Below, piece by piece: positions 16,166 to 59,728 of a stretch of 64,000 nucleotides of DNA. Source of the stretch: Trichaptum fuscoviolaceum. Its lineage: Eukaryota; Basidiomycota; Agaricomycetes; Hymenochaetales; Trichaptaceae. Each line of letters starts with the position of its first letter. The first letter of the stretch is position 1. The DNA lies in contig CAJSYZ010000011.1 in NCBI GenBank assembly GCA_910574455.1, positions 62,001 through 126,000 on the forward strand, in the 5' to 3' direction. The notes beneath the pieces were generated by a model. The model had not been told where the DNA came from. It made no database searches and saw only the letters and a list, made by a program, of their open reading frames with translations. Made by a program: the position numbers and the translations under genes.

Positions 16166-16174
16166 CACTCTCTG

Positions 16175-20489: not shown

Positions 20490-20900
20490 CATCAGGGAAT
20501 CTTCTTTTTCACTTAAGGTTACTTAAACGGTCTGAAATTTACTGAAGCCCTGGGAAGTGAAATTCTACTGATTTACTGATTTCAGGCATGTGGTTTCATT
20601 ATTCAGGAAGGGGCCTGCTGAAATCAGTGCCGTCGACTTAAATCAGCTCTTCAGGCATTCAGTCTTCAGCATTCAAGCATATCAGAAGTTTTTTTCTGGC
20701 ATTCGAATTGCAGTGCTCAAGTGTATAAGTGTGTAAGGGGTTCAAGTAGTTCATTCCATAAGTAATTCATCATTTAATCATATAAGCAGACTTTTTTGTC
20801 TGTCGGTTTGCAGTACTCAAGCGTGTAAGTGCGTAAGAGGTTCCAGAATTACTTCATTTCCACAAGTAATTTAAGACAATAAGTAGAAATCAGTGCATCA
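20490..20900 (+). repeat. left terminal and subterminal region of the 39-kb element
   Basis: Terminal repeat CATCAGGGAA, then many copies of CTGAAATC/GATTTCAG-like words (for example near 20531, 20577, 20618), comparable with the right end. A tandem duplication of about 100 bp follows (around 20705-20775 and 20805-20880, each with CTCAAG(T/C)GTGTAAGTG-like words and a 3' TAAGTAATT). Such subterminal motif arrays are typical of CACTA-group transposons. Confidence 0.6.
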
Positions 20901-21086
20901 GTGTCCCTCAGTAGCTACACCACGGCATCCTGAACCAGATTATATTTTGCCACTTCTACCTCGCTGGCAGGCTGTTCCTCGGCATATTCAGAGAAGAATG
21001 CCACTGCAAGTTGGTGGTAGTAAGAGCTTGAATACAGTGGCGGGGTGATGGGTCAAAGCCGAAGCTCACCAGAGATCGACCTGCTC

Positions 21087-24000
21087 TTAAAAGTCTGCGC
21101 CGTCCGTAGCCGAATCCCATAATGAACCCTCGTCCTCGCGATCGCCTTCCCCGTCCTCTCTGCCTGTGTCATTCTCCTCGCCCTCAAAACCTCCACTGCG
21201 TCCATAACCCATGCTGAAATTCTCGTCCGCATCCTTGTTCTCATCCTGATCCTGATCCTTGTCCTCCTCCTGATCCTTGTCCTCGTCCTCGTCTCCCTCG
21301 CCAAGCACACTCTCGTCCTCCATATCGTCTTCCCTATCCTTGAAATCCTCGACTTCTTCGCCGTCATTATCCTTATCCTCCTTGCACTTACTACTTCTAG
21401 TAGCGCCCTTGCCATATGTATACTCGCCGCTCGCATCCGCGTCTCCAACGTCAAGATACAGGGAGAAATCCCTGCCAGTGACACCCGATCCAACAAGTTC
21501 GGTGTTCTTTCCCGCACTAAAATCTTCAATGGAATTGTAAGCTGCTAGGCGGGATCGGACCTTCTCCCAGTTTGATTCAGTAAAAAACGAGGAATTCGAC
21601 AATAAGTTAACATAGTCGTCCATATGAGGCTGCCACAGAGCACTGGTGAAGTACCACTCAGCGCCACCAAACTCTTCTTTGATCTTTTGCAACCGGGCCA
21701 CCTGCTTGTCGATTGCAACCTTGACCTGTTCATGAGAAGTTCAGCGAATAAAGCCACTATAAGAACTGAAGTAGATAGATACCGCGGTTGCCGCAAGAGC
21801 GAGGGCACCGATAGGCTTTCCTATTGTGTTTTTGTCCAGTACTTTATGCCGACCCAGGGCCAAGACTAGGTGTACGGACAACACTGAGATTACGAGATCA
21901 GAGCAGAACAACCCTTGCTTCTGTACTTTCAGAGTCAATGCAGGGACACGAAGGGTGACATGGGGCAAATTTTCACATACCTTATCCATACTATGCCAGC
22001 GTTCCCAGAGGAATGGTTCAGCTTTCTTCTTGTCGACCATCGTCTGCAACATCTTCACAATTTCTTCGGTCTCCACTGACTTAGAACGCTCGTTGCCGAC
22101 GAAACTCGAAATTGATTGTTCGGCTTTCTCGAACAATTTCTTGCGCCAACTATCAGAGCATCTCTGGGCTGCCTACAGGGCAGATCATACTTGATTCAAA
22201 ATGGCCGATGTAAGACAATAAGGGATGACTCAACTAAAGAACAGATGTCGGCCAATTGCGTGTCGTAACTAAGTTCGACAGAATCAAACACCTTCCCCCA
22301 CAAGGTTCCGATGGACTTATTGTCCGGGTTTTGCCATGGAGTTGTGGACTTTCCAACTGCGCGATACAGTGAAGGCAGAAGAATGTGAGTCCAGCCTGCC
22401 TGAGTTCCGGGAGGGAGACACTGATTCGTTGCCCTTTTTTTGCCGGGAACGCGGGATCCCTCCCTTCCGATACTATTTCTATCCTTGTCTTCAAGCCCTA
22501 CAGATGTCTGCATTTCTGCAAGTTAGTGGATGTATATCATAGACATGATTTGATTAACGCACAGAGCTAGTAGTCCGAGAGACTTTGCGATGACCATCAT
22601 GAGCCTTGGTTGCGAGCACTTCGGGTTCAGGACTGATGGATACTGTCGTCATCGCAGGTGATTGTGCTCGTGGTGTTAGCGACACCTCACAACCACTTGC
22701 CTGTTTAAAGGAGCCATGAATTAGTACACGAATCAATTGCAGCAATTAGCTCACACTTGCAATATGTTGCGCATGAGCCGCCAGAGACCTCTTCAAATTG
22801 CGAATAGAAGTAGAAGATTTTATCTGTAGCAATTAGAGGAATTGTTACCAAGAAAAGCTCGAAGAGAATTGAATACCAGTATATCAGCCTGAGAATGACT
22901 GTCTTGCAGTTTACTCTTGTTACTAGTAGTGAGGTTCAAATCCTTGTTGCTTAATCAGAAATGATATGAAATGGAGATTAGAAGGATTAACACTAACTGT
23001 CGAGGCAGCCTGTGATGACGGCTTCTTCATATACACGTTCATGCTAGTCTGTTTTAGATAGTAAGGAAGTGATTTGAATATTGGGTGGAAATGCAAGAAT
23101 TACCACGGCATGCGAGTTAGAGTCCGGCGGTGACTTCCTCTTCTTATTATTCGCGATCATGCTGTCCTACAATAAGCAAAGCTTAGTAGACGACCAGATC
23201 CTTGCCAAAGAAAGGGGTGCAGAAAGTTATCCTATTGAGTGTCGATGCCTACACATACCTGCATCTGCAGATACAACGCCGGCGATTGCTCTCTATGTCC
23301 ATCGACAGTAATACCCTCCTGACGAGATGACAGGTGAGTAGTGAGGGGATAAAAGCAGAATAAACTTACCGTTACATCAAGCTGGGAGTTGGCGATTCTC
23401 TGCATTTTCGCGCCCTATTCAGAGTACGGTTTGGTAAGTAATGAAGTAAAGATATGTCGACGCCGAAGGCCACAAGAAAGTCCGGCACCAGATCCATGCT
23501 TTGATGTGAAACACTCACCTGAACGGCCGATTGTCTCCTGATATTCTTCTTCTCCAGAGCACAAAGAAGGAAGGATAAGTAGCGCGAACGAAGCAAGACA
23601 TTATGATGCCACTTACCAACGTTGTAGGAGCCTGCAACTCGGAGAGAGTGTCGCGGGATAGCTTCCTTTTCTTCGATTTATTGCTGGCTCCATCCTGATA
23701 CGATACAGAAACATTGTTAATTAGCCATCGTTGTGCATGCGACTCCACCGATGCATAGTCCCTTGAACTTTAAGCGGCACTCACATTGGCTTGGGGCGGT
23801 ATTGTAAGTCTCCTCGCGTCCTAATTAAACGCACAATCAAAATATTAAGATTTCATCTGCCAGTCTAATAAATGCTTTAACCAACTCACATTATCAGTGT
23901 CGGAGTCAACAAGATGTGCCGTCTGTCGCTCGCTCGCAAAGCTATTCTTTACACCTTGAAAACTCGTGAGGGTTACTGTCTCTCCTTCATCCTCCCAAGG

Positions 24001-25417
24001 ACTAAAGTTTGCATCCTTCTGCACTGAGGCGGGGAGCCTAAATTTTCCTTGCGTCAGCCAGGCTCACAACTTGAAACAAAGATAAGGATGTGAGCATTAT
24101 AAGAAGCTGCAACGTTCGGGTTCATGATGATCTTGAAGAAGTGTGGCACGGCGGTGACCCGGGCCGCCACGGTCGCTGCCACTGGCAGTGTCACTGGCGC
24201 ACGCGTGGCACGCTCAAACTGCCAGTGGCGGGCGCATTCAAGCTATCAGTACTAGTACTAGTAGTAGTAGTAAGTCGTACTACGATGATAAGCTTCAAGT
24301 AGCTGAGTTTAAATCATGCTTCACACTCACTAGCAACTTGAATTTGTTTGAATTTGAAACTGATCTTTCGTACTACGATGCCAACGGTTGAGTAGTACGA
24401 CTTCAAACTCACAAGTCAATATCTTCTACTATCTTCCCTGCGATCTCAGGATTTCTGCCCTCTCCGCCGAAGAAAGTGGATCCATCTGTGTTGCGAAGTG
24501 CCCTGACAGGTCGCTTTGTCTTATCGTTCCGTTTCGACGTATTGGGCGAGTCTATCATGTCTGTATCCTCACCAGAAAGACTGCTGTCCTGTCCTGCAAG
24601 CGTACTATGACAGCCAGTGCCTCCTATGATACGACTTGAAGCCTTTGCGCCCTGCACGCGAGTACGGAAAGGAAGTGCACCTATGGTGTCCTTTTTCCTC
24701 GCCTTTTTTGCGCGCTCTCTATCTGGTCCATTGGAATTGGCTGCATCATAACGTGAGTCAATATGTTCATCTTTCAAAATCTAAAGTCGTAAAGGTAATG
24801 CAACTTACGAACATTCAACTTTGCGTTGCCTTCAGCTTCACAAAAGCTGTCTTTTTCCTCCGAGTCGTTCGTTGATCCTGCAATGCCAATATCTCGTAAC
24901 TCGACTGTCGCTGTCTTGAAGATAAGGACTCACTAGCTTCAGGAGTGTCTTTCGGTTTTTTTAGCCCTCGTTTGTCAGTGCCAGCCAGCTTAGGTGCAGT
25001 TGAGCCCATCTGGGTGCGAATGTCAAGAGCCTTCGACAAATTCTTCTCAAGCTCCATCGTCTCCAGTATCGCTGTTTCCTGTTGCTCTGCTGCAGCTCTC
25101 TTTTTGCGTACCTTCTCAGATGCCTCTTGTTCTTTTGCTGCCCGTTTCTGTTCCGCATCAAGTTTTCTCTTCTCTCTCGCATCCGCGGCTTGTTGAGCCG
25201 CAGCTTCGCGCAGAGCTGCCCGTTCTTCCTTCTGTTTTTCCTTCTCCTTTTCCCTCAATGCCTCACCACGCTTTGAGGCCTGCTCTTCTCTCCTTCTCTC
25301 CTTCTCTTCTTTCTCCCTCAATACCTCCTCTTTCGTTCGACGTGTTCTGAGTTTATTGACTATGGCTCCCGGGTGCTGATCGCTATTCTTAGCCCGCGTT
25401 TGTCTTCGAGTTGACAT
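21087..25417 (-). CDS. Plavaka-linked gene: charged coiled-coil N-terminus, acidic C-terminus
   Basis: Function unknown. The likely start at 25417 encodes MSTRRQTRAK, then a long Lys/Glu/Ala-rich coiled coil (KEEVLREKEEKERRREEQ and so on, to about 25000) and a basic stretch KKPKDTPEASESLSSRQRQS. Further coding segments at 24777-24409 (SLSGEDTDMIDSPNTSKRND) and in small exons between 23950 and 22140 are plausible but not modelled; the frame leaving the first exon meets a stop at 24815, so a splice I cannot place or a defect exists. The last exons read FEKAEQSISSFVGNE...MDK (22136 to about 21980), VLALGRHKVLDKNTIGKPIG (to about 21782) and VAIDKQVARLQKIKEEFGGA (from 21725), ending in an Asp/Glu-rich tail and TAA at 21087. 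It is divergent from the transposase across 25418-26052. Genes of this style beside Plavaka transposases are common in mushrooms, as I recall. Confidence 0.5.
24115..24410. repeat. CACTGGCAG-rich, tri-nucleotide-repeat segment
   Basis: Contains GCCACTGGCAGTG and GCCAGTGGCGG words, an (AGT)n run near 24248-24271 and inverted GTCGTACTAC/GTAGTACGAC arms at about 24274 and 24396. It falls inside the minus-strand gene, so it is either an intron or a small insertion. Confidence 0.4.
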
Positions 25418-25439
25418 TCTTGTGCAGTGTTTCAAGTCG

Positions 25440-26052
25440 AGGCACGCTGACAGGTGCTATGAGTTTCGATGGTGAATCAAGTTGGCAAAGGTGCAAGTTG
25501 AAGTTGAAGTTGGAGATGAGGGCGCCTATTCAAGGAAAATTTACGCCCACTTGCACTTCAAGTTGCACTGCCAGTGCCTGATCCTGCTGGCACTGGCAGC
25601 CTGCCACTGGCAGTGAGTGAGCCTGAGTGACTCCGAGTCTGAGTCATGCCACTGGCACTGGCAGTGATTGGCAGCCTTCAAGTTAGGCTGACTCGGAATG
25701 AGCCTGACTCAGACTCGGACTTGGACACTCGGATACTCAGGCTAGCTCTATTACTAGTACTATCACAGTGCTACTAGTACTAGTACTACTCACTGGCACT
25801 TCAAGTTGCAGGCTCACTGGCAGGCTGGCGGCGGTGCCACTGAGTCACTGACAGCCTGAGGCTGTGGCTACTCAGGCTACCGGTACTACTACTACTAACT
25901 TCAAGTTGTTACGCGGGCGTCACCGCTGAGCGTGCCATTCAACTTTAAATTTCAAGTTAGCATTTGCGCTCGCTCCTACTTCAAGCTCAACTTGTTGTCA
26001 GTACTGCCGGCCGCCTGACGTACAATAGGCTGTGTTCAAGTTACTGGAACTA
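25440..26052. promoter_or_regulatory. divergent intergenic region with TTCAAGTT and CACTGGCAG arrays
   Basis: Between the minus-strand coiled-coil gene and the plus-strand transposase. TTCAAGTT (or AAGTTGAA) occurs many times (for example near 25497, 25557, 25676, 25801, 25898, 25950, 26034), interspersed with CACTGGCAG/TGCCAGTG words and CTGAGTC/GACTCGG words. Clustered short words of this sort are typical transposase-binding subterminal repeats of CACTA-group elements. Here they also sit where a bidirectional promoter would be expected. Similar words recur at 50040-51000 and 56030-56085. Confidence 0.45.
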
Positions 26053-29000
26053 ATGCCGGTAACTCGGCGAAGGCCCAAACCCGTTCATCTTACAGATATC
26101 TTCCCCCCGACTATTCAATGCACCTTCTCCTTCTGCAGCAGGAGGTTCAAGAATCAATCCGCAAGAACAAGACATGAATATTCAGCTCACCCGTCATCAT
26201 TTGCAACAAGACCTGCTGCTTGTGGTTACGACTCGGATTCCTCACCCAAGCAACCCGCACGACCTTCGACACCTCAAGCTCTTCCCGGCTCTCCTGAACT
26301 TCCAACAGACTTGGAGGGCCATCATGAAGATGAAAGCGGCTGCAACTCTTCAAGTTACGACTACGACATTTCTATACTCACACAGGATATCTCGATGCTT
26401 AGCATAGGCCGAGACGAGCTGCTTCAAGATTTAGACGGTCCTGATTGCCTGCCCCATGCTGACACTGGAGATGACGAACTTGAAGACCAAGACCTATCTT
26501 CTGCTGATCCGGACTCCGACATTGGAGATTATGAAGAGAACAATGATAACTTAAAGGTGTATCACAGATATTTAAATGGTGCGCGCTAAGTATGATGTCC
26601 CCGGTTTACTGTAGCATTCTGACACCAAATATCGTGCAGCCACTCCATGCGATGAAGAAGGGAACTTGTTAGAAAAGGAAGAACCGCCCGTTTTACGGAA
26701 CGAACCTGCGTCAAATGACTGGTTTCCCTATTCGTGCCGAGCAGATTTCGAGCTCGCAGATTTTCTCTATCGCGAAGAGCAAATGTCTGCTGGCAACATA
26801 ACAAAGCTTCTCGGAATTATGAAGGCTTATCAACTAATTCAGTCCACGGAGAACGCACAATCTGTTGAATTGGGCGCGACAGATCCCAACTTCGATGACT
26901 CAGATCTGGATACAGCTGGTACACTGCTTGATGGAGATGCACAAAATTTGTACAAGATCATTGACACTACAAAAGTCGGTGATGTATCTTGGAAATCCTT
27001 CAGTAACTTCTACACTACCGACAAGGGCCAAAAAGCGTCAAATGAGAACATCGAGTCATGGAAGAGGAAAGAATATGATGTATGGTATCGGGATCCTTTG
27101 GAAGTGATCCGAAATTTGGTGGATAATCCGGCTTTAGAAGGCGAATTTGACTTTGTCCCGTTTCGTGAATTTCAGACAAAGGAGGACACCGATAATATCA
27201 ATGACAAAGAACGAGTTTTCAGAAATTACATGTCCGGGAATTTTGCTTGGGAACAGGCTGTAAGTCATGACTCATTAACTCGCACAGATACTTATTATCC
27301 TTGACTTAGAACAAGATCTATGCAGAAGATAAAGCAGTCCATGGATCTATGTTCGTCCCGGTCATCTTAGGGAGCAATAAGACAACGGTTTCTGTTGGAA
27401 CTGGCAATAATGAATACTATCCTTTGTATCTCTCGATTGGGAATGTATCAAACAAGGCCCGGCGGTCCCAGAAACTGAATACAGTCCAGCTCATAGCATT
27501 TCTGGCAATACCAAAGAGTATGTGTTAATAGTGATCTATTTGATTGAGTTCTGATGCTTTGCAGCTGAGCGGCAATACGAAAAGTCAGATGACTTCCGGC
27601 GTTTTCGACATCAGATTTTTCATTCGTCTATATCGAGGATCTTAAACTCGCTGAAAACCGCAATGATCATGAACACTCAGAAAACTATTCTCCGGTGCCC
27701 TGATGGTCACTTGCGTAGGTCAGTTTTCGGACTTGGCTCATATATAGCCGATTATCCGGAACAGGTCAGCCTTTGCGCCATATGCACTGGATGGTGCTGC
27801 AAGTAAGTCCTAGCTTTCCTGAAATCAAGCTCTGTTGCGATAACTTACTTTCAACATTATAGATGCACAGCGCCTCACAAGGACCTCGATAATCCGGAAT
27901 TTGTATCAATTCCTCGAACAAAAGAGCTGCACGAACGATTGATAGAACAGGTAGACGTCAACAACATGAATAAAGCAACAATTCGGAAAGAGTACGGATT
28001 CCACCAGGACATTGTGGTACGTGCTTCAAATTATTCATTGGATGCGTATATTGCAGCTGATACGTTGCTCCGTAGCCTTTCACCAATGACATTCCGCGCG
28101 CAGATATATGCGATCTCATATCTCCGGACCTGCTGCACCAAATCATCAAAGGCGTGTTCAAGGATCATCTTGTCGAGTGGATATGTCAGAGCTTGACCAC
28201 GTCAGAGCTGGACATTGTGGATAAAAGGTGCTGTTTTTTTACAAGTTGTTTAATGTGAATACCGTTGCTAATCTCCGCGTAGAATCAGAGTCGCTGCTCC
28301 TTTTCCTGGACTTCGCAGATTCCCCGAAGGCCGAGGCTTCAAGCAATGGACAGGCAATGATTCTAAGGCACTTATGAAAGTATGTGACCTTTTTATCTTG
28401 TTCGAGGCAGTGGTTTGCTGATATTTGATGCAATTTGCTTAGGTATATCTTCCGGCTATCGTGGGCATTGCACACGATGATATGATTCGCACATTAAGTG
28501 CATTTCTAGACTTCTGTTACCTTGTGCGTCGGTACACGATTACAGCCTCAACTCTTGATCAAATCAAAGCCTCTTTGGATCACTTTCACCGTTATCGGCA
28601 AATATTCATAGCTAAGGGCATCCGGGATAACTTTTCACTACCACGACAGCATGCTATGGTCCATTATCCAACATTGATCCCTCTGTTCGCTGCACCGAGT
28701 GGACTGTGCTCATCGATTACAGAGAATAAGCATATTTATGCGGTCAAAGAAACATGGCGACGCTCGAACGGAAATGATCCCTTGGGCCAGATGATCACAG
28801 CAAATCAACGACTTAGTAAACTTATTGCATCGAGGTCAGACTTCGAACGGCGTGGAATGCTAGACGATACGCTATCTGAGGCTACGTGGAAAGTTTTGCG
28901 AGATGTTCTGCGGAAGAATATGTCAGAGCCGGAGGAGGAGGATGCTGAGAGGATCCCGAACCAGAGGGAGCAGATGCAGTGTATTGGTATGCCAGTGGCA

Positions 29001-32000
29001 GTGTTACGACCGTCGGGAATTGTAGCGGGAAACAGTTTCGGGAAACTGGAATTCGCGACGAGAACCCGCGTTCGGGAATCTGGATTCGCGACTGGGAACG
29101 AGCGTGGGAATTCAGGCGGGAAACGCGCGGGATTCTATCCAGGCGCGTCGCGGGATTCTCAAGGCCAGCTAGGACTCTTCACTGCTTTGAACGTCAAGTA
29201 AGCGGATCCCTAAGGAAGCACTCCACAAGTAAGTATTGCGCAACTAACTACACAGGAGAAAAGAGAGAGATCGCACCTAAGGAAGCACTCCACAAGAGGT
29301 CAAAAGTGGGGTGCTCCTTACGATGCCTACAGCTATTTATCTACTTCGTAAAGACTGTATAGTTAATCTACGCTAAGTGTCCTTGCGCAATGCGCACCTA
29401 TCTACTACAAACGATACATGCTACGACCGCCCTGCTAGGCATGTCTATCCCGTCTCTCCAGATGGCTACGGCCTGTCCGTGGACGTCAGCGTCCGGTCCG
29501 GGGCCGCGACTAGCCAGACTAGGTATGCCAGACTGTTGCAGGTCGTCACCTTGAGGTACTAACGGATTAATGAGCGTATGTTGATAAGTGAATGTACGTG
29601 TGCCGTGGCGGGTCGTCGTAAATGAGTGTGCGTATGCGTGCATGGTTGCCGGGACGGTGGTGCGGGATAAGTCACGTGAGCATGGGATCGTGCGATTCGG
29701 GAATGAGGTTTCGCGCGGGGAATCCAATGGCGGGATTCTCCCCGCGGGTTTGTCTGCTCATGTCGGGATCCTTGGCGGGAAAGTGCGGGAAATGAGAAAA
29801 GGAGCCCGGGATCTCGACATTACCCCCCTCCAAAGGCGCAACTCCGGGGCGCCAAGCTTGAATCTTGCTCAGGTCACAGAGCTCGATAGCGTTGACTTCT
29901 CGAGGGGCGTCCGGGTGTTTTCGATAGAAACTGCGAATTTTAGCCTTTGCATTACCCATATCCTTCGCGGGAATCCATGTATCTTCCGCGCTCGAATATC
30001 CCTTCCATCGTACCAAATATTCAAACCTCCGTCTAAACCGTCTAGCGTCCAGTACCTCTTCCACCTCGTATTCCAGATCTCCTTCTACTTCGACTGGGGG
30101 CGGCGGGGGTTGCGTTCGACCGGGAATATCGTCTTCGTGGTATGGCGAGAGCAGCGATACGTGAAATACGGGATGAATCTTCAGCGACGCGGGGAGTTCG
30201 AGTTCGTAGGTGAGGTCACTTAGCTTTGCCTTCACTTTATACGGCCCTAGTCGTTTCGGTAATAATTTGCGCGCTCCCGGTCGCCGAACGTTCGTCGCCT
30301 CAAGCCATACTTTATCCCCGACTGCGTACTGCGGGGCCTCGTTCCTGGCCTGATCGTAGTGCTGCTTCATGCGTTCTGCCGCAACCTCCAAAGCCGCTCT
30401 TGCCTCTTCCTGTGCCTGCTGAAGCTCCTGTAGTCGTGCGTCCGCGGCGGGGACCGTGGACAGGCCGTCGCTCGGGGCAATCGTGAATTCGGGATTGTAG
30501 CCGTAGACCAGCGCGAACGGGGATTGTCGTGTTGCCGCGTGCGCTTTCGTGTTGTGCGCGAATTCTGCCATTGGGAGTAATCCGGCCCAGTTTTCTTGTC
30601 GTATATCTATGAAAGCCCGTAAATATTGTTCCAGCTCTTGGTTTACCCTTTCGGTTTGCCCATCCGTCTGCGGGTGATACGCAGTCGACGTGGTACCCTT
30701 GATACCGAGTCGGGAAAAAAGGGCTTTCATGAACTGCGCGACAAACTGTGGTCCTCGGTCGGATATGATCTGGCGGGGGGTTCCGTGCAGCTTCCAGACG
30801 TGCTGCAGGAATAGTTCCGCAGTTTCCGGTGCATCAATGTCAGACGTGGTCGGGATAAAATGCGCTTGCTTGGTGAGACGGTCGACCACCACGAAAATTG
30901 CGTCGTAATCCTCAGATCGGGGGAGCTGGGTGATGAAATCGCACGAAATCGCCTGCCAGGGGCCCTGCGGGATTTCGTTCGGTTGCAGGAGTCCTACCGG
31001 GCGTTGGGATCGGTTTTTCGTGCGTGCACAGGTATCGCATCCCGAAACGTATCGTTCTACGAAGTTAGACATCCCGGGCCACCAGTAGTTGCGGCTTACC
31101 ATCTCAAACGTTTTCCAACGTCCAGGATGTCCGGCGGGGAGACTGTCGTGGTAAGTCTTCACCACATCCCGGCGAATGGTCTCGTCTTTCGGGACGTAAA
31201 CCTTACCCTGGTACAGGATGAGGCCTTCTTCGGTGCTCCAGTCCTCAAGTTCCTTGGTCAGGACTCGAGGCGCCTTGGACTTGACCAGCTCGATTGCGTC
31301 CACCAGTTCGTCTTCATACTGATCTGACTTACGAATGCGTCGTAGGAGGGCCTGATCCCCGTGTACCTGCGTCATTCCCCGACGAATTGCCTTTAGTCGA
31401 AACATTTCGGGGGTCAAGAGGGTCCGTCCCGTGTTGTCTTCGCCTTCTGGTTGAAGATCGACGCGTCGTGACATGGCGTCGGGTTTGCCCCCGAGTCGTC
31501 CTGGGCGATGGCGAATCGTAAAGTCGAAGCGGGTGAGGAACAGACTCCACCGGGCTTGGCGTCGCGTCAGCGTTCGGGATTCAGAGAAATATAGCAGATT
31601 CTTGTGGTCAGACACGATATCGAGTTTATGACTCGCACCTTCGAGATAATGTCGCCACTCGTCAAGAGCTCTAATAATCGCGAGTAGCTCCTTGTCGTAA
31701 ATCTCGTAGTTGCGTTCCGCATCGTTGAGGGATTTCGAGAAAAAGGTGACCGGATGTATCAGCCCGTCGTCGCCTTCCTGGGACAAGACCGCGCCGGTCG
31801 CGAAATCAGAGGCGTCGCATTCCACGATGAATTGTCGCGACATGTCTGGCATCATCAGGACGGGGGCGGTCGTGAACATGCGCTTGAGATAGTCGAAAGC
31901 GAACTGCTGGTTTTCTGTCCAGGCCCAGCGAACGTCCTTCTTCAGCAGCGTCGTGAGCGGTTTGACGATGTGCGAGAAATCCCGAATGAAGCGTCGATAG

Positions 32001-40636: not shown

Positions 40637-40786
40637 AGATAAACCCTCATTTAGCACACAAAGTACCTTTAAGTTGAAACTTATGAAGTAAGGATATGAC
40701 ATTTAAATGTTCAACATTGTACAAAGCTAGACAATAATTACTAAGTTAAGCTGTACTAGTATCATAGTATTGAGACTTACGTAGTA

Positions 40787-45600: not shown

Positions 45601-46279
45601 ATGGCTGAGCTGCATTCGAGTGAACCAGGAGCGGCACTAGCATGCTCGCTGGCGGCAGCAATCCAGGTATGTCTTCATTTCATTTGTGTTGCATTTAAAA
45701 AAATTGACTGACAATGGCCCGCTTTCTTCGCAGCTGCGCCATAACCCATTGAGCCGTGCGTGGCAGACGCTTTCGAGCTCTCACCTCCCTTTTTGTGCTC
45801 CTGTACTCCATCCAAACTCGCTCACGCCGCATCGGTCGCCCGCCTCGCCGCACCACGCACGAACGGCTTTTGGCCCTCTCAGTGCAGTGCGCCGCGAGGC
45901 CGTAGTCGCACCCGCGGACCTGGTCTAGCGACGCGGATGGAGCGCGCTGCCGCCGTGCGCGCGCGCGCAGCACCCGCTGCCCGCGTACCGGCCCAGCGCG
46001 CGTGTGCGCTATTTTAATTTAGATATTTTAGTTTCTATTCCAAATTTTAATTAGGCCTGGACCGTAGTCTAGGCTTTACAGATTAATATAATTATTATTT
46101 CAAATGAAAATAAAGTGCTGCCGTGCTGCCGGGCAAAGCCCTGAGAAGGCAGCATCGGCACGCGCGGCCCAGGCAGAGCTGAAAGGCAGAACAAGCTGCC
46201 GAAAGCCTGCCGAAGTTACCGCGATAACTATACAATTGGGTTGCGATAATTACCACAATTCTATAAGATTATTAGCTGG
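42656..46279 (+). mobile_element. 3.6-kb TIR element carrying an HSP70 fragment, copy 2
   Basis: Same family as 33627-37428, in the opposite orientation. Ends: CCAACTAATAATC on the left and the reverse of CCAGCTAATAATC on the right, with TIRs of about 65-70 bp and GTAC at both borders (42653-42656, 46279-46282). Interior blocks correspond in order to copy 1: the GCCGCCTCACGGCA-type region near 42770, MLRHCAKVSAGAYNGVV-like sequence at 42979, the Gln/Ser-rich block at 43200-43560 and the HSP70 block at 45255-45640. The flanking 13 bases of the reconstructed empty target, AGCCGTACTGGTG, are the same as for copy 1. Confidence 0.85.
45255..45640 (+). pseudogene. HSP70 C-terminal fragment with internal tandem repeats (copy 2)
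   Basis: The plus strand shows the repeated unit LRTSLNDEKLKD / LRTSLDDEKLTDK / LNSLND(stop)KLKDK, followed by TAINETISWLDASQKASKQE, YKEEQEDG and TGA. INETISWLDASQ.ASKQEY is a clear HSP70 helical-lid motif. It has the same tandem unit of about 90 bp as copy 1, so the expansion predates the spread of the element. Confidence 0.75.
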
Positions 46280-46995
46280 TACTGGTGATTGGAGATGGTC
46301 TTCGATGGTTGCGATGAGATCGTAAAGGGCGTCGAAATGGGCCTGGAAGTACGGTAGGAAGATTCGGAAATCATGAAACCAGGGGTCCGACTTGGATGCC
46401 TGCAATACCTCAACACAGTCTTGCTTGAAATCTTCCGCAATACACATTACACCCGATTTGCGATAATTTAGATGCATGCTGTAGTCTTTCGGAGGGGAGT
46501 GATTTCGTATGACCTCCCAGAGTTTCTTTGGCTCTATCTCGTGGAACCTGTAATTATAGGGTAGACTATTTGGGGCCGCGGGGGTGTCGAACACTTCATC
46601 TCTAGTGAACCAGATGACAATTGCGGAGGACTCCATGAAGAAGAACCTTAGACTGTCCAAGAGCTTCCTTACTCTAATAGCGTCGCCCGCTGGCCGTGAC
46701 TAACAAGCGTAGGTTATTAGACGTTCTTTTTAGAAACATGATCTTATTACTTACCCCCGTAACATTTGCAGACAAGAGCTCGACCACTTCAGACATCTTT
46801 CCCAAAGCTGTGTTCAACGTTTGAATCTGCGCCTCAAAAGCAGTGCTCATCTGTGCAACCTGTTTCTCCAACTTCATAATCCTATCATCCCCTGAATGAG
46901 CTGGATGGTTTGAAGTCGAGCGAACCGACTGCATGTCATCTGTACCAGTGAGCAATGGGGAAGTAGCAGTGCTCGTCCTTGCAACATTTTCACTG

Positions 46996-49816: not shown

Positions 49817-50399
49817 GACTGACATTTTCCTCCAAATTCGTAATCATATCAACCCCTGAATGAGCTGGATGGTTTGAAGTCGAGCGAACCGACTGGTTGT
49901 AATCTGTACCAGTGTGAACTGGAATTTCTATAGCTTCTGAAATACTTTTTGCAGTAACGACCAGGGAATCCAAAGTAGCCGGAGATTGGCTAATGCTCCT
50001 TTTTATTGTATGCCCAGGTCCTGCTCTCGTCCCATGCGTTGACTCTGACAGTGATCGCGGAAGTTCAAGTTGCACTGGTGAATCGCTGACAGTGTGCGAA
50101 TGACTTCTTCCTTTACTTGTCACGTCAGTTGTCTTTGCCCTTTTCGCTTCATTGCCTTCAAGATAATCATTGTCCGGCTCATTCAAGTTATGACACTTAG
50201 TGCTCGGCTCCCCTGAATCCGAGTCCTCTGCTGAAGGCGGCTGTTAATTGGCTTTGTTTCCAGTCCGAGGTAAAACGAGCTCACTTTGGTTACTACTATT
50301 GTTGTAAGTACGTTTCCGCCGATTTATAGGTACTATTCCCCGTTCTCGACTCCGAGTTGGATTCGATGCACTGGCATTTGGTGACGTATACATTGTCTA

Positions 50400-51085
50400 A
50401 GTCTTCTCAGGCTGCTGATTGGGATTATCTACAATTTAGTTATTGTCAGAACCAACAAGGGGGCCCAACTTAAACGCAGGCTCACTGGATATTTCGAACA
50501 AAACTGTGACTTGAAGCCTGAGAGGAGGTTGTATTGCTTTCTCCAACAGCTTCAAGATGTAGTTAAAACTGGTCCTCAGGCTACTACTACCGGCGCGGCA
50601 CCACCGACTCGGAGTCGGAACCGAATAGTATCAAGTTGAAGTTCGGTTCGAGTTTCAGAACCCTTTCAAGTTTAGAGATCAAATTGCCAGTAGTATAGTA
50701 GTAGTACAGTACTACTCGGGCTACAAGTCTGAAGATCTCAGTCAGTGGATGAAGTTAAACTAGGAGACTGAAAGTTGACTCACCGCCAGCCTGAGTACTG
50801 CCAGTGGCAGCCCCTGAGCTACTAGTAGAATTTAGGTGGCAGGGACTTCAACTACAAGGTGATCGGGCTTCAAGCTGCTGAAAAGAACAAGCTTGAGAGC
50901 TACTAGAGTGTAGACAATGACACGACACGTCGCTGGTCGCTGGCTTTCAAGTTGGCAACTCCTCGTCATTCAAGTTGATGGGCATGGGGTAGTCAGGCTA
51001 CTAAATGCGGAACTTGAATCTGAAGCCAAACTTCTCACGCCACTGCTGGTGCCAGCCTGAGGCTAGTACTCTCCGGCACATGTTC
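50400..51085. repeat. motif-rich intergenic stretch (TTCAAGTT, GCCAGTGGCAG)
   Basis: Upstream of the broken minus-strand gene. It contains AAGTTGAAGTT, TTTCAAGTTGG, CTGCCAGTGGCAGC and (AGT)n words like those at 24115-24410 and 25440-26052. No gene seen. Confidence 0.4.
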
Positions 51086-54000
51086 TAACCCATGCTGTTC
51101 CAACCTCGCGACGAGACATTCCTCAACAAACTCGGATATCTCGGACGGGCATGCTCTACAATCATCTTCATCTCAAGCAAGCATTGGAGGGTATGTGCTG
51201 ATACGCATAGTTCAAGGTGGCCTTGCGGTAGAGCTCATCTTTCTTTCAACAAGCATATCCTCAATGTGGTTTGTCCTTCCGACCACAGTGATACCAATAC
51301 CAACACTTGTTTCTTAGGAGGATCAACTTCTTCTCGTTTTTATCTCAGTCGACTCGCTGCTTCGAATAATCCTGCCTGTCTATGAAGATGGACTGCTATG
51401 GCACGAACCACCACAGAGGATTGCTGTAGGGAATGGACTGTGAGGACGCTTGGAGGAATTGAACCAAAGATAGCTTACGTGCAGGATGCTATCACCATAG
51501 CTATGGGATTGAGCACGGGAGGTTACGTGAGAATAGAATCGGAGTTCATGATGATGGAATTTATGCAGGTCAGTGACCTACCAAATAGATGTAGAGATCA
51601 GAACTCTAATTTTTGTATCGTTTCGCAGAGCAATGGAGCAAAACAGAATACAGGATGAACGACTGGTGTCCAGCACTTCTTCATATTCTCTCATCCATCG
51701 TAGAACATCCGAACGAGATTCTCTCATTCCATTCGCGTCTATCCCTCAACCGAGCGACATTAACAACCTCTTCTCATTATCTCGAGATTGTATCCTGCGA
51801 TGTTGGTCTCCGAATAAAAGATGCCGGTCAGAGGTATCTTTTCCCCTTTAAATGGCAATAGAGAAGGGCCTTCGCTGTTACAGGGGCGTCCGCAAAAACT
51901 TTTGCTGGCTCACGAGTAATCGGGCCAAACCGAAGACAACTACTCCGTCTTTGTCTTCGTCCCTTCAAGTTCCCTTACTTTAGGTACTTTAGGTGGCACT
52001 TCTCATATTTATGAGTTCGCATCTGATCAATCATACTGGAATCACATCAACCTCTACCCCCCTAAAAGTGCGCATTGTAGATTACAAGAATTTCTTACGG
52101 ACGGGAGGCTATACGTTCTCTGTGAGAGGAAAGGAGAATCTGTGTGCGAAGTCGCTTATTTCGGTCCTGGTGTGGAAAGGCGTACTTGGACTCCCGCGGT
52201 CTGCGGTCTAACGGACAAACTGCATAGGAAACTTTTGGTGGGTTGCTGTTACAACCAGGCTCGTTAACAGAGAACTTCCTCAGGTTGTCTTACGTCCTGG
52301 TGTATTTTCTGTTTAACACTATGTTCTGCTCTCCAGGATTACATCTTGGCCCGCACCCTCCACTATTGATCGCATCCTATGCAATTATCGGAGAAAGGAA
52401 CAGCCGCTGCCGTAGGATGTACAGTTGAGTTGACACGGGATCATCTTACACACTGGCACTGGCAGCCTAGGGCAGGAACCACCTTACAGACACACTTTAT
52501 CCAATCATCCAAGATGAGTAAGCTCTATAATATTGTTGATGGCCTCAAGTGACTTTTCAGTAGTGAACTGACGTAGTCATGGCCTCCTCCTCAACTACCA
52601 CTGTATCCCAACGCCCAAGTCACCGCAGATTCTCTTCTTCACTTTTCTACCAATTTTCAACATCGAATTCCTCCTGCACGTCCCGATTCTCTCTCAACAC
52701 CATGCGGGACCTTGTACAACTCTGATAGACCTCTTTCTTCCGCCGCGCATCTGCCGACTCGCGCTTTGCCTGTCTCGGCACGCTCAAATTGTTCTATCGG
52801 TTTCAACGCCTCGCGCAGCTCGCGTAAAACGTCTCTAGGCTCGTATGGAAACCAAGGGGGTAGGAGTTCGACCGCTTTTGCAGAGGAACGAAACCACTGC
52901 CGTCTACGCAATTTACTGCGCCCACAGCTGGCGCCCCAATTCTTGACCCAGGATTCTCTCGCAGATTTATGCCGACGCGTATTCCCCCACCGACTAAAGC
53001 AATGGCGAGCACACATGCGCACGCGTCCACCTCCACAGTTGACAACACAAACTTCTTCAGCGATTTGTGATGGTAGAGTGGTTACATCCGTCACCATATA
53101 TCATGAGTGAACCTTCTCCGAGGGACAGGGCTATGCCAGAGAGCTCATCGTCAGTGGTGGCTGATGACCAGCTCAGAGAGCAGGACGTTAAAACTGGTTG
53201 CTGCACTTGCATCCGAGGTCCGCTCCTCCCAGGTTTTGAATCGCGAGACGCATCACCGACGTTTCGGATGTGCAAAGAGGCAAGTTACTGAACCGGCCCT
53301 CACAGGCACGAGGAGAGGATGTATGCGTGCAGTAATCAGTGAGCGAAAGCTACTACTGTACTTCTCGAGTAAGCTGTTCTTTTAATTTTTGAATCATAAT
53401 ACTCACAGGCTTCTTCAGCTTTGGAGCATCGGCACGGGGAATGTCTATACGTTCTCCGAGAACATCTGCATAAGATTTACGCCGAAAATTATAGTCTTCT
53501 TTTCTTGGGGTGGGGGTAGGGGGATTGGACACATCCGTTCGCGTATGGAATCTGCAAATGGGTATGATTTTCTTCACATTCCTGTATCCCCGACTCATCA
53601 GTGACAACTTTCCAGTACGACTCCAACTTTCTTGTCACCGGAAGGAACGATGGCCGTGTCAGCTTCTTCTCGTTCCATCATTCCTCTTTTCCTCGACCAT
53701 CTCAAGCTCAACAATAAGCGGCCACAGGACTCGCGCTGAGCAGTCAGTCGGGATGAGTCTCTATCCCTACCGTCTACTCTCACTTCAGGAATCCCTGCTC
53801 AATCGACATCTAAGCCTAAGTTCGCCTGGCCTGAGCGGCGTAAAGAGCCCAAAAACATGGGAAGGATGCTGGACAGCGACACTCTCTCACCACATACCAC
53901 AGTGAGGAGAGGGAAGGTTGCGAAGTTGCGCGGTCGGATTCGTATATACGGGGCTATGTATCACCGGGCAGTTTGATGCATCCCAATATTCCGCTTGCAT

Positions 54001-54709
54001 GCACAAAGGTCGACAAAGCAACTCACAACTCAATTTGCAAATGCTGCGAAGGGAAAAATATAACTGCATTTTCGACATCATCCAAGTTGTTGTCAACTTG
54101 TCGTGTCCCCATTCCTTGCCAAACACCTCTGCCCCGCCACCATTGCCGCCTAAACGGAGAACACTCGGTTTCAATGTGCAGTATGAGTCCATCATCGGCC
54201 GACAGCGCAATTCCCTCAGCTCCGAGGACGAGAAACGCGCCTTCATGCAAATTACTCCTTCCGAAGCGGGTTGGGATGCATTCAAGTTGGCCCATTTCCC
54301 ATTTTGGCACGGTTCTAGTTCAAGTTTCGGGTTGTGTACAGGGATGACTGTTGTATGGTGAGTTACTCGTGGCTTTCTTCGAAATCCTTCTAGAGCTGAT
54401 GGAGCAGCTTCTTGTGCAGTGGGTTGTATCCTCCCGACTTCTTCGGAGTTAACATGACTCATTTTCTTGTTCGTTTGTGCTTAAAATGAAAAGAAGCCTT
54501 ATAATCAAGTCATCCGGAAGAAATCATTTGTTATCTCCTATCAGTTCAACTTGCGGTTTATCCGAGTCATAGTACAAAGCACTAATAGCTCCCTCTCTCT
54601 TTCTAGAAGAATGGGAAATCAGAAAACTGACTTCAACTACTTTGTATAAGTGTGAAGTGGGAGCGGGTATTGTCCCCAAGATCATCATCAAGCCATTCCA
54701 CCGTGAATC
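51086..54709. other. no recognised gene; several short frames
   Basis: Open frames on both strands (for example 51398-51658, 52657-53097, 53353-53607, 53887-54462) overlap each other and show no domain I recognise. The minus-strand piece at 53353-53607 (RRKSYADVLGERIDIPRADA) and the plus-strand piece around 54150-54310 (PKRRTLGFNVQYESIIGRQR) have ordinary amino-acid composition and could be exons of decayed genes. A CACTGGCACTGGCAGCC word sits near 52454. Nothing further can be supported. Confidence 0.35.
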
Positions 54710-55751
54710 ATGTTCTCAAATCTTCGTACTATCCTTCTCATCCTCCTCTCCCTTGATTACGCACGCCTGCACCTCCGCACCGTCCTCCGCTTTCAGCTCG
54801 TTCAACGGTGGACAGCAAGGGCTCAAACGAAGGTACTTGTTTCATTCATATCAAGATCTGTACACTGACTTGTTGCTAGATACACAAGAAACTGCAAACG
54901 TTTCTTGATCTTCTCGGGGTACCACCAACACCTCTCTCCGAATTACATCAATATAGGCTCCATAATATAGTTCCGATACAGTGTCGCACGGGCTTGGATG
55001 TGGACAATGCAGTGACTGCAATATATGCTTCATTGCCACAGGTACCAGCTAGGAGATTTGTCTCGATCGACATCGAGTGGGCAAGTGGCGGAGAAGGGCC
55101 CAATCATCGCGTGGACCTCATCCAACTCGCAGTTCAACACCACATTTATCTAGTCAGGACGCATACTCTTACTGACCTTCCCCCTACGTTGGCGCAACTC
55201 CTTGGAGATGGTACAGTCATGAAAATTTCCGCAGGAATCAACGGTATGAATAACTTATCTTTTCTCCTGCGAGGTGGCCTAACAGAAGAAATGGCAGGTG
55301 ACGCAGTGCGTATAAAGCGCAAGTTTCGCACCTCTGTGCGCTCCTGTGTCGATCTGACAGATTGGGCGCGCGTTGTCTACCCGGAAGTCTGGCCCAAAAA
55401 CCCGACCTGGTCCCAACTGCTCTTAAACCCTCGTCTCTGGTTCCAGCATCCGACTCCGACTGTCAAGCTCGAAAAAATAGTGGGAGAAGTATTGAGGCTG
55501 AACGTCAAGAAGAGTAGTGAGGTCACAATGAGTGACTGGGCAGCTGACGAGCTATCAGCGGCACAAAAAGAGTGTAAGTTATCATTCTGTTGTTCAAGAT
55601 CAACCATCTTCAAGTTCTCACTTGCATGATCTGCTGTACTGGAATACTAGATGCAGCTATTGACGTTCACAGCACGTTTGCTGTAGCTTTGGCCCTGAGC
55701 CAAAGCCACTCACCCTTACCGGATAAGTACATCAAGAACTTCGAGGCTTGA
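54710..55751 (+). CDS. DEDD-type 3'-5' exonuclease domain protein
   Basis: Three-exon model: 54710-54832, 54880-55573, 55651-55751, with GT-AG introns of 47 and 77 bp; 918 bases, 305 residues. The family (RNase D/WRN-exonuclease fold) removes nucleotides from 3' ends of DNA or RNA using two metal ions. The N-terminus MFSNLRTILLILLSL is hydrophobic. Exo I is FVSIDIEWASG (Asp and Glu present). Exo II would be ISAGINGMNNLSFLLR, where the usual Asp appears to be Asn. Exo III is EYAAIDVHSTFAVALALS, with Tyr formed across the second intron and Asp present, the DEDDy pattern. No stops or shifts, which is striking beside so many pseudogenes. It lies inside the 39-kb element, so it is a cargo candidate. 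Activity is doubtful if the Exo II change is real. Confidence 0.75.
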
Positions 55752-57185
55752 TCTAGTAGGCTGAGGCCCACCAGTAGCAGGTTTGACCAAATGTGCTTGA
55801 GTTATCGAGTAAATTGTTGTGCGCATGCTCTTGTCTTTCAAAGTTGCCAGGAGATTCATGATTAAAATTTATTATTGAATTGCCTTTTTTTCCCGAATGA
55901 TCACCGTAGTCTGAGGTATCAAAGTGGTTTGGAAGATGTCGCCAATGGTGTCTGTCTGCTGTTCGGATTGCTTGCCATGATGATGCTTCCAGTGGTGAAC
56001 GAGCTTTAAATCTAAAATTGGAACTTGAAGAGTTCAAGTTGCCACCGTGACTCGCACTTGAACTTGAACTTGAACTTGAACTTTTTACCACTGCGTCCCC
56101 TCAACGACACAGTGTACGTTCTCCAGTCTTGTTATGAGCACTTCTCCGCCATCCCCCACCCATTCCATAAGACCACTTATTGGCCTGAACAAGTTATGTT
56201 TTATCCTACCCTCAAGCTTGTATTGAACTCGCCTAGACTTCAACATTTCCGAATGAACCAAAAAACGATAGTGTACGTCTGAGAACGTGCTTCTTGCTTG
56301 ATCTTATCACTCACATTTGTCTTTAGTACCTGGAGAGGAGAAGGTGGGCGGCCTTGTTATAGTGAGAGGAGCTCCGACGTGCACGCTGAAGCGAGCATCT
56401 TCTACCTTTCGAACGACACCCGCTGAGGATAGGCCGATACATGTTGCATCACCAATTGTTGTAATCTTCATCAAAAATAAGTAACAATCCTTCGTCTTCA
56501 ACTAGAGTCGACACCGCCTTATAGGAAAGGAAGGGCAAGGGCCGTCCGCTGACGATTGAAGAGGTGGCAGAGGACGCTATTGATGAGGGGGCAGATGAAC
56601 TACACGACCGATCCCGCGCCAGCCTTGCGCATGTGTCCTTGGATGCCCCTCGCTTCACATATCAGTTTCCTGCGCCGAAACCGCCATTGCAACATAGTAA
56701 ATCTCGCGTCCGTCAATTGCAGGCTGACGGCCCCGGCCCCGGCCTCGGAACACCACCTCATACCGTCTTGCGAGACACCTTCATACCTCTAGTTGAATGT
56801 GATACACCTCCGATAGTGAAAAACGCGATGAAGCGAGGCGAACATCCTTCCATGAAACAGCTGCCAGCATCTCCCGGCCAATCTCTAGCAAGTCTCCGGA
56901 AGGTAGCGTGAACCTAGGCGCTACATCTAGTTCACAAGCATCGGACTACGGTGGCGAACATCTATGAGGGCATGCGAGGGAAGAGAATAAGCGCAACCTT
57001 TGAAGCCTCTGGAACTATAAGTACGGACTTCTCTTCTTGCTATTATATTACTAGGCTTATACTGGTTTATTCATCAGCGAAACCACATGCGTCTATTTCG
57101 GATACTTTGCTCTTCAAACATATCATATCAACACAGATCTAACCGAAGCTAAATGTGTTAGACAATTATTGATCTGGACAACTTC
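55752..57185. other. no recognised gene; TTCAAGTT/CTTGAA repeats
   Basis: A run of (CTTGAA)n lies near 56055-56085. Short frames at 56025-56282 (HRDSHLNLN...) and 56564-56911 (RFTYQFPAPKPPLQHSKSRV) might be exons but show no known domain. Confidence 0.35.
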
Positions 57186-57189
57186 GCGG

Positions 57190-58990
57190 GGCGATGGAGC
57201 TCGAGACTGTGACTACTAGTACAGCAAATGGGCGGTCAACCTATGCTGCGCTTTTGTCTTGGAGAGAATTGTCTCACTTTTTCTTTGACACAGTTGAACT
57301 TTCAAGTGCGTACCATTGTTGTCGCGACTACGACCGTCGCTCGTGGCGACTTGACGCAGGAGATCGTGGGCGTGTCTGTTCAGGGTGATATTCTGGACTT
57401 GGCCATCAATGGAATGGTTGACCAGCTGGCTCTCTTCACTGCGGGGGTGACCAAAGTCGCTCGGGAAGTCAGAACGAAAAAACTCGGTGTTCAAGCTGAA
57501 ATCGAGAATGTTCATGTCACAGCAAAAAATCACGTATGTTTATTTCACTAGCATTCCGCTGAGTTGTGTAGTGTGGTTTTTACTGAACGCACTCCGAATA
57601 GAATGGCTGTTGACACCATGGCCGGAAACTTGATGACCGAAGTGCGTGGTTTCGCGCAGATCAGTACTGCAGCTATAAACGGCGACTTCACGTGTTTCAT
57701 CACCGTCAAAGGCTCAGGCGAGATGGAATCCTTTGAGACTCATCAAATCAATTAAATTGTGCACTACTTGCGCGAGTCGATTTAGAAGAACGCCGCCGCT
57801 CGTGAAGCTGCCGAACTTGCCAGTCGCTCCAAGTTGGAGTTCTTGGCGAACACGTCTCATGAGATTCGACCCCTATGAACGGTATCATTGGCATGAAAGA
57901 GTTTACGCTGGATAGCAATTTGAATAAGAGTCAGCGCGAGAGTCTTCTGCTGGTGCATAGTTTGGCTCGGAGTCTGCTATTGATTAATGTCGATATTTTG
58001 GATATCTCGAAGAGTAAGCTAATCCGCCGCCGATGCTTCCAAATTCAGTTGCTAATATTTCGATTAATTACTACATTCGAAGCAGGCAGGATGACGATAG
58101 AGCAAGTTTGGTATTCACTGAGACACACGGTTTTTGGTAACCTCAAGACTCTCGTTGTACGACCATCGCAAAACAACCTCGACCTCACATATGACGTTTA
58201 CCCAGACATTCCTGATCAGCTCATCGGTTACTCGCTGCATCTGCGCCAGGTCATTACGAACATTGTCGGCAACGCTATCAAGTTCACCTCGAGCAAGGTC
58301 GTGCGGAACGGACATGCTGCGCTGTCGTGCCGTCTGGTTGGCATCAAGGACTCGATGGTGAAGGTAGAGTTCTGTCTCACGGATACGGTATCGGTATTAC
58401 GAAAGGTACAGTGAACTTGATCTGTGGTACGTTCGTGCGAGGGGATGGACAACCACTCGAGTGAGCTCTTCTCGAATAGTCATTTGTTCCGGCCTGTAGT
58501 GGTCTTACTTTCTTAAATCTAGGACTATGGTGGTGCTGTCCTTGGTCAATCAGTATCGAAGTGAGTTGTGTCGCTGATGAATAAGACGATGTGAGTTGAG
58601 AGCGAGCTGGGCAAGGGAAGTTCACGACCACCTCCTAAATCAGCCAGTTGTCCACCGAGAACGTACTTTCGATGATCCAGGCATTCGCGAAGCAGAAAAT
58701 CCGGCTTGCCAATACGCTGGACGACCGAACAGGTGTTAGTGATGCGTATCACAGAGCTTATTCTGAAGCCTTACGACGTGAGCGAAGTTGCAGATAATGA
58801 GTGTTGCCTACATATCAATGGGATACTTGTTGATTCGCTGACGGCCGTAAGTCATCTTGTTAAAGTGCATTCAAGCTACAGTATAAAGCCTTACTCAAAC
58901 ACTTTTCGGATGATCCAGAAGGAACAAACCAGGAGTATGAACACTTGCGATATATACCGATCGTTCTGGCGTCAGACCAAAATTCCCTAT
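57190..58990 (+). pseudogene. nik1: group III hybrid histidine kinase (NIK1/Os-1 type), broken
   Basis: NIK1 is the HAMP-repeat osmosensor kinase above the HOG pathway. Recognised: TTTVARGDLTQEIVGVSVQG, NGMVDQLALFTAGVTKVARE and KLGVQAEIENVH (last HAMP unit, about 57315-57515); [16 protein letters not shown] (about 57620-57665); AAREAAELASRSKLEFLANT and SHEIR with the following TPMNG out of frame (H-box, about 57793-57880); GIIGM, LDSNLNKSQRESLLLVHSLA, ILDISK; an intron; GRMTIEQVWYSLRHTVFGNL, LRQVITNIVGNAIKF (N-box, about 58236-58280); a frameshifted DTGIGI box (about 58380); a degenerate second glycine box near 58525; and receiver-linker pieces VADNECCLHINGILVDSLTA and EHLRYIPIVL (to about 58970). 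Frameshifts and stops make it non-functional. It lies inside the 39-kb element near its right end. Confidence 0.8.
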
Positions 58991-59499
58991 TGAACAAACA
59001 ACTGCCAGACCGAGATCTACCCCCACTTCCCATCGGAGGCAATCTGCTTCTCAAGGATGTAGAAGCAGAGCTAGATCGATAGGTTGCGGTGACGAGAATT
59101 GACACGAGAGCGGCTACGGCGGACCATTCAAGGTGGAGGGTAATTCAAGAACATGGACCTTGAGGGAAAATGATCAGAACGTGCGCAATCGGACAAGAGA
59201 GAAATTGCTTTCGGAACAGATTGAAAATAGTATGTCCGAGTCCTCCGAAAACCCGTAGTAAGAACTCTGGAATTTATGTTTGACAATTGTTTCAGGCGTC
59301 AGGAAGAAGATGCCACTTGGGCGGAAGTCGGACAATTCTCGAATCGCTCAAGGCAAATGTGCTTGAGTCGCTCAGCCAACAACGAAAAGCATGAACATCC
59401 TTATCAGCGAAGGCGAGAGGAAAGCAGCGCGCAGCCTACAATACTGGCGTACTGAATTACTGGTGTACTGATTTGTACTTACTATGACATTTGAATTGT

Positions 59500-59728
59500 A
59501 CATGCTTGTACTTAGTCTTTACTTATGCTTGACTGACCTCCTGATGTACTGACGTACCGAGTGTGTCCTGAAAATTGGCTTATTTCAGTGTGTTCAGGCC
59601 ATCAGTTGATTTCAGACAGGCATAGCAACATATCAGTAGATTTCAGACACGCATAGCAACCCTTCAGTCCATTTAAGGCAGCGTCAGGACGCGTCAGTCG
59701 CCTTAAGCAAAAAGTAGTTTCCCTGATG
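59500..59728 (-). repeat. right terminal and subterminal region of the 39-kb element
   Basis: Reversed from the end: CATCAGGGAAACTACTTTTTG, CTTAAG, then repeated TGGACTGAAG, GTCTGAAATCTACTGATA and GTCTGAAATCAACTGATGG words. A direct pair containing CAGTTGATTTCAGACAGGCA and CAGTAGATTTCAGACACGCA is obvious at about 59603-59657. Confidence 0.65.

Follow-up and report, generated by a model that had tools for sequence, protein, structure and literature searches.

What occupies positions 20490 to 59728 of this 64,000-nucleotide stretch of Trichaptum fuscoviolaceum DNA (contig CAJSYZ010000011.1, positions 62,001 to 126,000; hereafter the window), and did it arrive as one unit? A first-pass annotation had described the interval as a 39-kb cargo-bearing CACTA/Plavaka-like transposon whose empty site lies in the same window. 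Our analysis indicates that it is very probably a single member of a family of giant PlavakaB-type DNA transposons, 22-25 kb in length, and that this family is a modular, recently amplified variant of the known lineage. Four observations carry this reading: the ends are defined, 2-bp duplications flank copies at unrelated sites, dispersed copies match one another from end to end, and a transposase, an exonuclease and two minus-strand genes (g1 and g2) are found again in a diverged element, with silent change exceeding replacement change.

Boundaries, empty site and dispersed copies

The interval begins at 20490 with CATCAGGGAA and closes at 59728 with the inverted TTCCCTGATG, with TA on both flanks. 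It lies within one of two copies of a smaller host transposon (~2.2 kb, with ~143-bp inverted repeats) that are found in opposite orientation at 6906-9161 (copy A) and 18334-20489 (copy B) and are 99.1% identical over 2.2 kb. Reading the sequence confirmed the inverted ends, the TA flanks, the splitting of copy B and the single-TA empty site in copy A, all of which the first-pass annotation had reported. Because the host transposon carries ~143-bp inverted repeats, the unoccupied-site sequence occurs more than once in the window.

The mobile unit itself is smaller than had been proposed. The span of 39,239 bp consists of a 22.2-kb element and three later insertions (~17 kb), each with its own target duplication (Table 1), so that the figure of 39 kb was inflated; the accompanying estimate of about 22 kb without nested insertions agrees with colinear copies of 22,157-22,180 bp elsewhere in the genome, which show ~99.5% identity and have their own 2-bp duplications. 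The largest insertion, a Ty3-type long terminal repeat (LTR) retrotransposon, has ~819-bp terminal repeats that are 99.6% identical and is itself interrupted at ~33619-37436; it interrupts an exon of the transposase gene model, and the two insertions with 8-bp duplications interrupt the centre gene, g4. The transposon at 33619-37436, inside the LTR element, and the one at 42648-46286, inserted directly in the Plavaka element, are ~79% identical and oppositely oriented. The window copy would have entered an inverted repeat of the host transposon before the three insertions disrupted its transposase gene and g4; as its own transposase is broken, it could now be mobile only with the transposase of another copy.

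The search for other copies covered one 59-Mb genome assembly. The left and right terminal 411 bp each recur at at least 40 places with 99-100% identity (best 40 of 255 left and best 40 of 338 right candidates scored). A 29-bp left-end pattern had 80 exact matches and 92 with up to two mismatches, a 28-bp right-end pattern had 69 and 124, and the reversed control patterns had none. The 80 exact left ends were then paired in correct orientation with 71 right ends (the 69 exact ones plus two of the three single-mismatch ones), leaving out the 12 inexact left ends (up to two mismatches), the right end at C10:2910325 (one mismatch) and all two-mismatch right ends. On the same strand and within 80 kb, 64 of the 80 left ends have a right partner, with spans of 22,157-75,637 bp.

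Six more complete elements of the class to which the window copy belongs (class A, defined below by its centre), joined from overlapping stretches, measure 22,157, 22,180, 22,180, 22,784, 23,564 and 23,627 bp; the one at C5:6024198 served as the reference, with which the other five and the window copy align from one terminus to the other at 99.1-99.9% per aligned piece. An exact 2-bp duplication is present in all 32 copies for which both flanks were read: the class A set of seven (window copy included), one from the comparison with the C5:814890 class, and the 24 scorable members of a further set of 25. Random 2-bp flanks would agree about once in 16 cases. In the 24 further copies the duplicated dinucleotides are TA (5), TT (4), AA, CG and CA (3 each), TG and AT (2 each), and CT and TC (1 each), and the TA flanks reported earlier therefore hold for the window copy but are not a rule. 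Dispersed, colinear, full-length copies, each with its own duplication, bear out the proposal of movement as one unit.

Alternatively, the ends might derive from unrelated or short elements, with the present arrangement produced by later rearrangement or segmental duplication. Closer pairs do exist for a two-mismatch end variant (right end CCATAAGCAGAAAG or CCGTAAGCAGAAAG): among the matches listed there are two of ~3.0 kb (C1:18273-21298 and C2:120551-123580), perhaps non-autonomous relatives, and one of ~11.6 kb (C1:4479031-4490605). The exact ends, however, are not confined to elements of less than 2 kb, as none of the 64 pairs is shorter than 22 kb; the copies are colinear end to end, and the 32 checked copies have differing flanks, each with its own 2-bp duplication. 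Since segmental duplication does not give 2-bp duplications, the full-length copies and their duplications read as refuting it, and we regard this alternative as extremely improbable.

Some features of the survey nevertheless weigh against the view of the interval as one copy of an amplified family that moves whole. The assembly represents one strain, from whose sequence movement was deduced; 16 of the 80 left ends and 7 of the 71 right ends have no partner; proximity was the basis for joining the long pairs, with duplications confirming those that were read, the 75.6-kb pair included; and 13 of 60 class B centre marks and one of 16 class A centre places fall outside paired ends. The full copies that were read keep their interior within their ends.

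Table 1. Features of the element and its surroundings, in window coordinates
Feature	Positions	Strand	Remarks
Unoccupied single TA in host transposon copy A	9073..9074	.	Amid empty-site sequence
Host transposon copy B, left part	18334..20489	.	Split by the element; right remainder ~59729-59817
Left target-site duplication, TA	20488..20489	.	Flank read and empty-site comparison
Left terminus	20490..20518	+	10-bp perfect inverted repeat CATCAGGGAA, inward pairing imperfect (by eye); 29-bp pattern, 80 exact places
Core segment 1	20490..29001	+	Element 1-8508
Gene g1	21087..22507	-	Acidic C-terminus; extent from home-made model
Gene g2	24413..25456	-	Basic, coiled-coil-like by eye; extent from home-made model
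Plavaka transposase gene	26053..40614	+	Multi-exon, broken by the 29002-39533 insertion; extent approximate
Later insertion, Ty3-type LTR retrotransposon	29002..39533	-	5-bp duplication GGCAG
Core segment 2	39534..42647	+	Element 8504-11616
A-type centre	40713..52250	.	5.0 kb in uninterrupted copies; mapped from element 9683-14707
Centre gene g4	42002..50393	-	~590 amino acids in uninterrupted reference copy; broken by the 42648-46286 and 46992-49821 insertions
Later insertion, 3,639 bp	42648..46286	.	8-bp duplication GATTGGAG
Core segment 3	46287..46991	+	Element 11609-12313
Later insertion, 2,830 bp	46992..49821	.	8-bp duplication ACATTTTC
Core segment 4	49822..59728	+	Element 12306-22180
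Predicted DEDDy-type 3'-5' exonuclease gene (PF01612)	54710..55865	+	Predicted in-frame 54-nucleotide intron between motif II residues
Kinase segment	55932..59683	+	~3.75 kb without match in the 17.2-kb relative; holds the kinase remnant
Decayed histidine kinase remnant	57792..58993	+	Limits approximate; H-box and next residues in different frames
Right terminus	59701..59728	+	Final bases TTCCCTGATG; 28-bp pattern, 69 exact places
Right target-site duplication, TA	59729..59730	.	Flank read and empty-site comparison

Two classes with different centres

The copies share their arms and differ in their centres. The class B copy at C5:814890 is 25,340 bp long and matches class A over 1-9,604 and 17,831-25,340; between these arms lies an 8.2-kb centre (9,604-17,831), where class A has its own (9,683-14,707). 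No DNA likeness was detectable between the two centres except for one 109-bp piece, 75% identical, that matches the A left arm, and a comparison of the minus-strand centre proteins for distant homology found none. By centre mark, 15 of the 64 pairs belong to class A, 46 to class B (one with two B marks) and three to neither. A search with the A centre (best 40 of 210 candidates scored) placed the A type at ~16 loci, mainly at 98-100% and one at 93%, together with one fragment at 87%; a further 16 places hold a related set, mostly at 71-77%. With the B centre (best 19 of 276 candidates scored, so that distant relatives could escape) at least 19 near-identical loci were found, at 98-100%, and a 29-base B marker occurs at 60 places in the genome.

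Gene-like models of 903 and 525 amino acids were obtained in the B centre with a home-made gene finder. The 903-residue protein has two homologues, 94% and 83% identical over 52% of its length (7,997 candidates scored). In the copy read at L040:5863-7392, the class B centre protein ends in residues that depart from its relatives P0001 and P0002 as though the reading frame had changed, and an AlphaFold model of P0001, built from two sequences, was too poor for use (mean predicted local distance difference test score, pLDDT, 38).

Fixed differences between the classes amount to ~1% in the outer arms and 1-4% over most of the transposase, rise to 6-8% at 8,501-9,000, next to the centre, and drop back to 3-4% ahead of the junction. 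A central block swapped between element lineages by recombination would account for two classes with common arms. The same difference could have come about without exchange, by a deletion in one class and a nested transposon insertion in the other: nested insertions occur elsewhere in both classes, the junction alone gives no direction, and B-centre relatives standing on their own could have escaped a search in which 19 of 276 candidates were scored. The B centre nevertheless holds gene-like models, the two centres have nothing in common by DNA and their minus-strand genes nothing by protein, and the 6-8% divergence beside the junction, compared with ~1% in the outer arms, is what an exchanged tract would show, which makes deletion plus insertion improbable.

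A diverged element suggests which centre came first. From the related set we joined three stretches (L084, L087 and L088; C9:3143900-3170400) into a 17,202-bp element with similar ends and AA on both sides. It is colinear with class A, containing g1, g2, the transposase, an A-type centre and the exonuclease, and has no match to the 3.75-kb kinase segment. This gene order, taken from two families, suggests that the A centre is probably the older state, that the B centre probably replaced it and that the kinase segment was probably gained. It also revises the notion of cargo. Because the exonuclease, the two minus-strand genes g1 and g2 and the centre gene are found in the relative too, they look like genes of the element, and the kinase segment alone looks captured.

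The copies within each class are very similar. Seven class A copies are 0.14-0.41% apart in substitutions, most of them seen in a single copy; in class B, a 4.2-kb stretch is free of substitutions among five copies from five contigs, and a sixth copy has one. Small insertions and deletions (indels) separate these near-identical class B copies, and because some fall in runs of A, part of them may be assembly error.

Genes of the element and their state

Gene models throughout come from the home-made gene finder, whose long minus-strand chains are partly spurious. The Plavaka transposase gene that the first-pass annotation placed between the ends is there: a single window exon gives a match to its domain (E 5.1e-24), and a home-spliced model from the class B copy C5:814890 matches PF18759 over positions 4-325 of 325 (E 1.1e-95, with 1,087 of the 1,239 residues of the model as query). 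This model includes doubtful splices, one of them beside a private insertion of that copy; the PF18759 match lies before the insertion. Between YIADYPEQ and SSITENKH, a class B copy has CAIC and then HAMVH, in the expected order; the catalytic residues (D, D and E) were picked out by eye. The enzyme would cut at the CATCA...TGATG ends, move the whole unit and leave the 2-bp duplications, and copy number may rise through repair or through transposition timed to replication.

Compared with the 17.2-kb relative, the ratio of replacement to silent change (dN/dS) is 0.15-0.34 for pieces of the transposase, 0.23-0.46 for g1, 0.28-0.43 for g2 and 0.18 for the exonuclease, the last with dS near saturation. 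Comparison of class A with class B, on few changes, gave 0.12-0.28 for g1 and 0.10 for the exonuclease; both exonuclease ratios include the predicted 54-nucleotide intron. The transposase, the exonuclease, g1 and g2 all recur in the diverged relative with less replacement than silent change, and they look like conserved element genes.

The exonuclease product matches PF01612 (E 4e-10). Among sequences with solved structures, NanoRNase C and the Werner exonuclease come closest, matching over partial stretches (E ~1e-4 to 1e-3), and two close relatives in public data are 86% identical over 91% and 92% identical over 58% of the query. DEDDy 3'-5' exonucleases are recognized by D-x-E, an aspartate in motif II and Y..A.D in motif III; the predicted protein has SIDIEW, then GINGD after a predicted 54-nucleotide GT-AG intron, and YAAID. 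That the motif II aspartate is missing was considered and rejected, as the stretch is spliced out in the relative P0003, matching the GT-AG intron in the DNA. Low dN/dS is not in itself proof, because the open reading frame opposite the gene also has a low ratio; the prediction of an exonuclease is also based on its motifs, its intron and its relatives. An AlphaFold model of the window reading frame from one sequence was too poor for use (mean pLDDT 32). The enzyme may have a role in transposition.

Three loci of the related set have open g4 exons in matching positions, and no homologue of this centre gene was found among 6,810 candidates at E 0.001. Class B has spread without a g4 of its own, and g4 is therefore dispensable in cis; class A copies could supply it to class B. 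The decayed kinase of the first-pass annotation was recovered as a remnant matching histidine kinases (E 2.9e-14) with disrupted frames, the H-box and the next residues being out of frame with each other.

Not all of the gene evidence favors a conserved, self-moving element, and the points on the other side are these. The g1 gene of the relative contains one stop; comparing A with B gives less clear-cut ratios than comparing with the relative, at 0.21-0.74 for the transposase and 1.44-2.12 for g2, both on few changes; g4 is weakly constrained (0.68-0.84 against the relative) and absent from the B centre; the reading frame opposite the exonuclease has a dN/dS of 0.21 over 69 codons with a stop; and many copies have private small indels in the transposase interval, from decay or assembly error.

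These indels bear on whether the 22-25-kb units are non-autonomous, their own transposase generally dead, and moved in trans by another intact family. The transposase of the window copy is broken by the LTR element, private small indels are found in the transposase interval (introns included) of six of seven A copies and in that of four of six B copies (all but L090 and C5:814890, the latter with a single insertion private to it), and related Plavaka elements with similar ends exist in the genome. Codon-position bias and dN/dS, on the other hand, indicate that the transposase has been kept under selection, L090 has no private indel in the compared interval, and transposase and arms are conserved together in the 17.2-kb relative. 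We consider movement by another family unlikely, if a real possibility, and favor movement by the family's own transposase. A narrower suggestion, that the one-base insertion in C5:814890 marks class B transposases as dead, was rejected: it is absent from all five other B copies.

Relation to known large transposons

The comparisons that follow draw on portions of the cited papers. PlavakaB is defined there by CATCA..TGATG termini and 2- or 3-bp target duplications (Kojima 2025, PMC12730594), and by transposase domain, termini and duplication length the window element fits this CACTA-like lineage; the PF18759 transposase, the CATCA..TGATG termini and the 2-bp duplications justify the CACTA/Plavaka-like label that it had been given. 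It differs from PlavakaB as described in that portion (PMC12730594), where no element lengths are given, in that it carries an exonuclease gene and a kinase remnant and has a centre that can be exchanged, and no TET/JBP gene, for which PlavakaB (PMC12730594) was the point of comparison, was seen in the part of the element's reading frames that was scanned. Plavaka elements are known in mushrooms (PMC8290104, PMC7473861), and Plavaka giant repeats reach 50 kb in Amoebidium, where, unlike the window family, they are described as intron-poor genes clustered in tandem together with numerous tyrosine recombinases; the portion used mentions neither termini nor target duplications (PMC11244446).

Transposons longer than 20 kb have been reviewed (PMC6431247). 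The enlarged CACTA/EnSpm elements of the red alga Chondrus crispus (16-20 kb, 4-5 open reading frames; cited in PMC6431247) are likewise oversized DDE-type DNA transposons with extra genes, although of another branch and host. Starships of Pezizomycotina, classed by their tyrosine recombinase and up to ~700 kb long (PMC12134995), are also large fungal transposons with genes beyond the transposition enzyme; the family described here has instead a Plavaka transposase, inverted ends, 2-bp duplications and a length of 22-25 kb, and a Pfam scan of part of its reading frames gave no tyrosine recombinase among the proteins scanned. A literature search that did not extend to supplements, Repbase or subscription journals turned up no description of a Plavaka element of 22-25 kb with defined ends and swapped centres, and among the titles listed for giant cargo elements in Basidiomycota or for large CACTA elements of mushrooms none describes such a family.

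It is tempting to generalize, with somewhat less than even confidence, that mushrooms host their own modular class of giant transposons built around a DDE enzyme and not a tyrosine recombinase, with conserved arms that carry transposase and exonuclease, a block-swapped centre and a 25-kb version active now or very recently. With dozens of complete, near-identical 22-25-kb copies one can test by what means a DDE transposase moves DNA of this length, whether the exonuclease helps in movement, and whether exchange of the centre block drives success, the newer B centre having 60 marked places and the older A centre ~16. The extent to which mushroom genomes are reshaped also becomes testable, as the 64 paired spans total 2.14 Mb, or 3.6% of the assembly, nested insertions included.

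Two observations concern where copies lie. At C11:2441376-2467001 a class B copy is apparently inside the right end of another copy, with another exact right end lying 287 bp beyond the first one, and the family therefore inserts into itself. Nine of the 80 exact left ends fall within ~0.8 Mb at C7:3935781-4745172, a cluster that may reflect a centromere, a heterochromatic block or local hopping.

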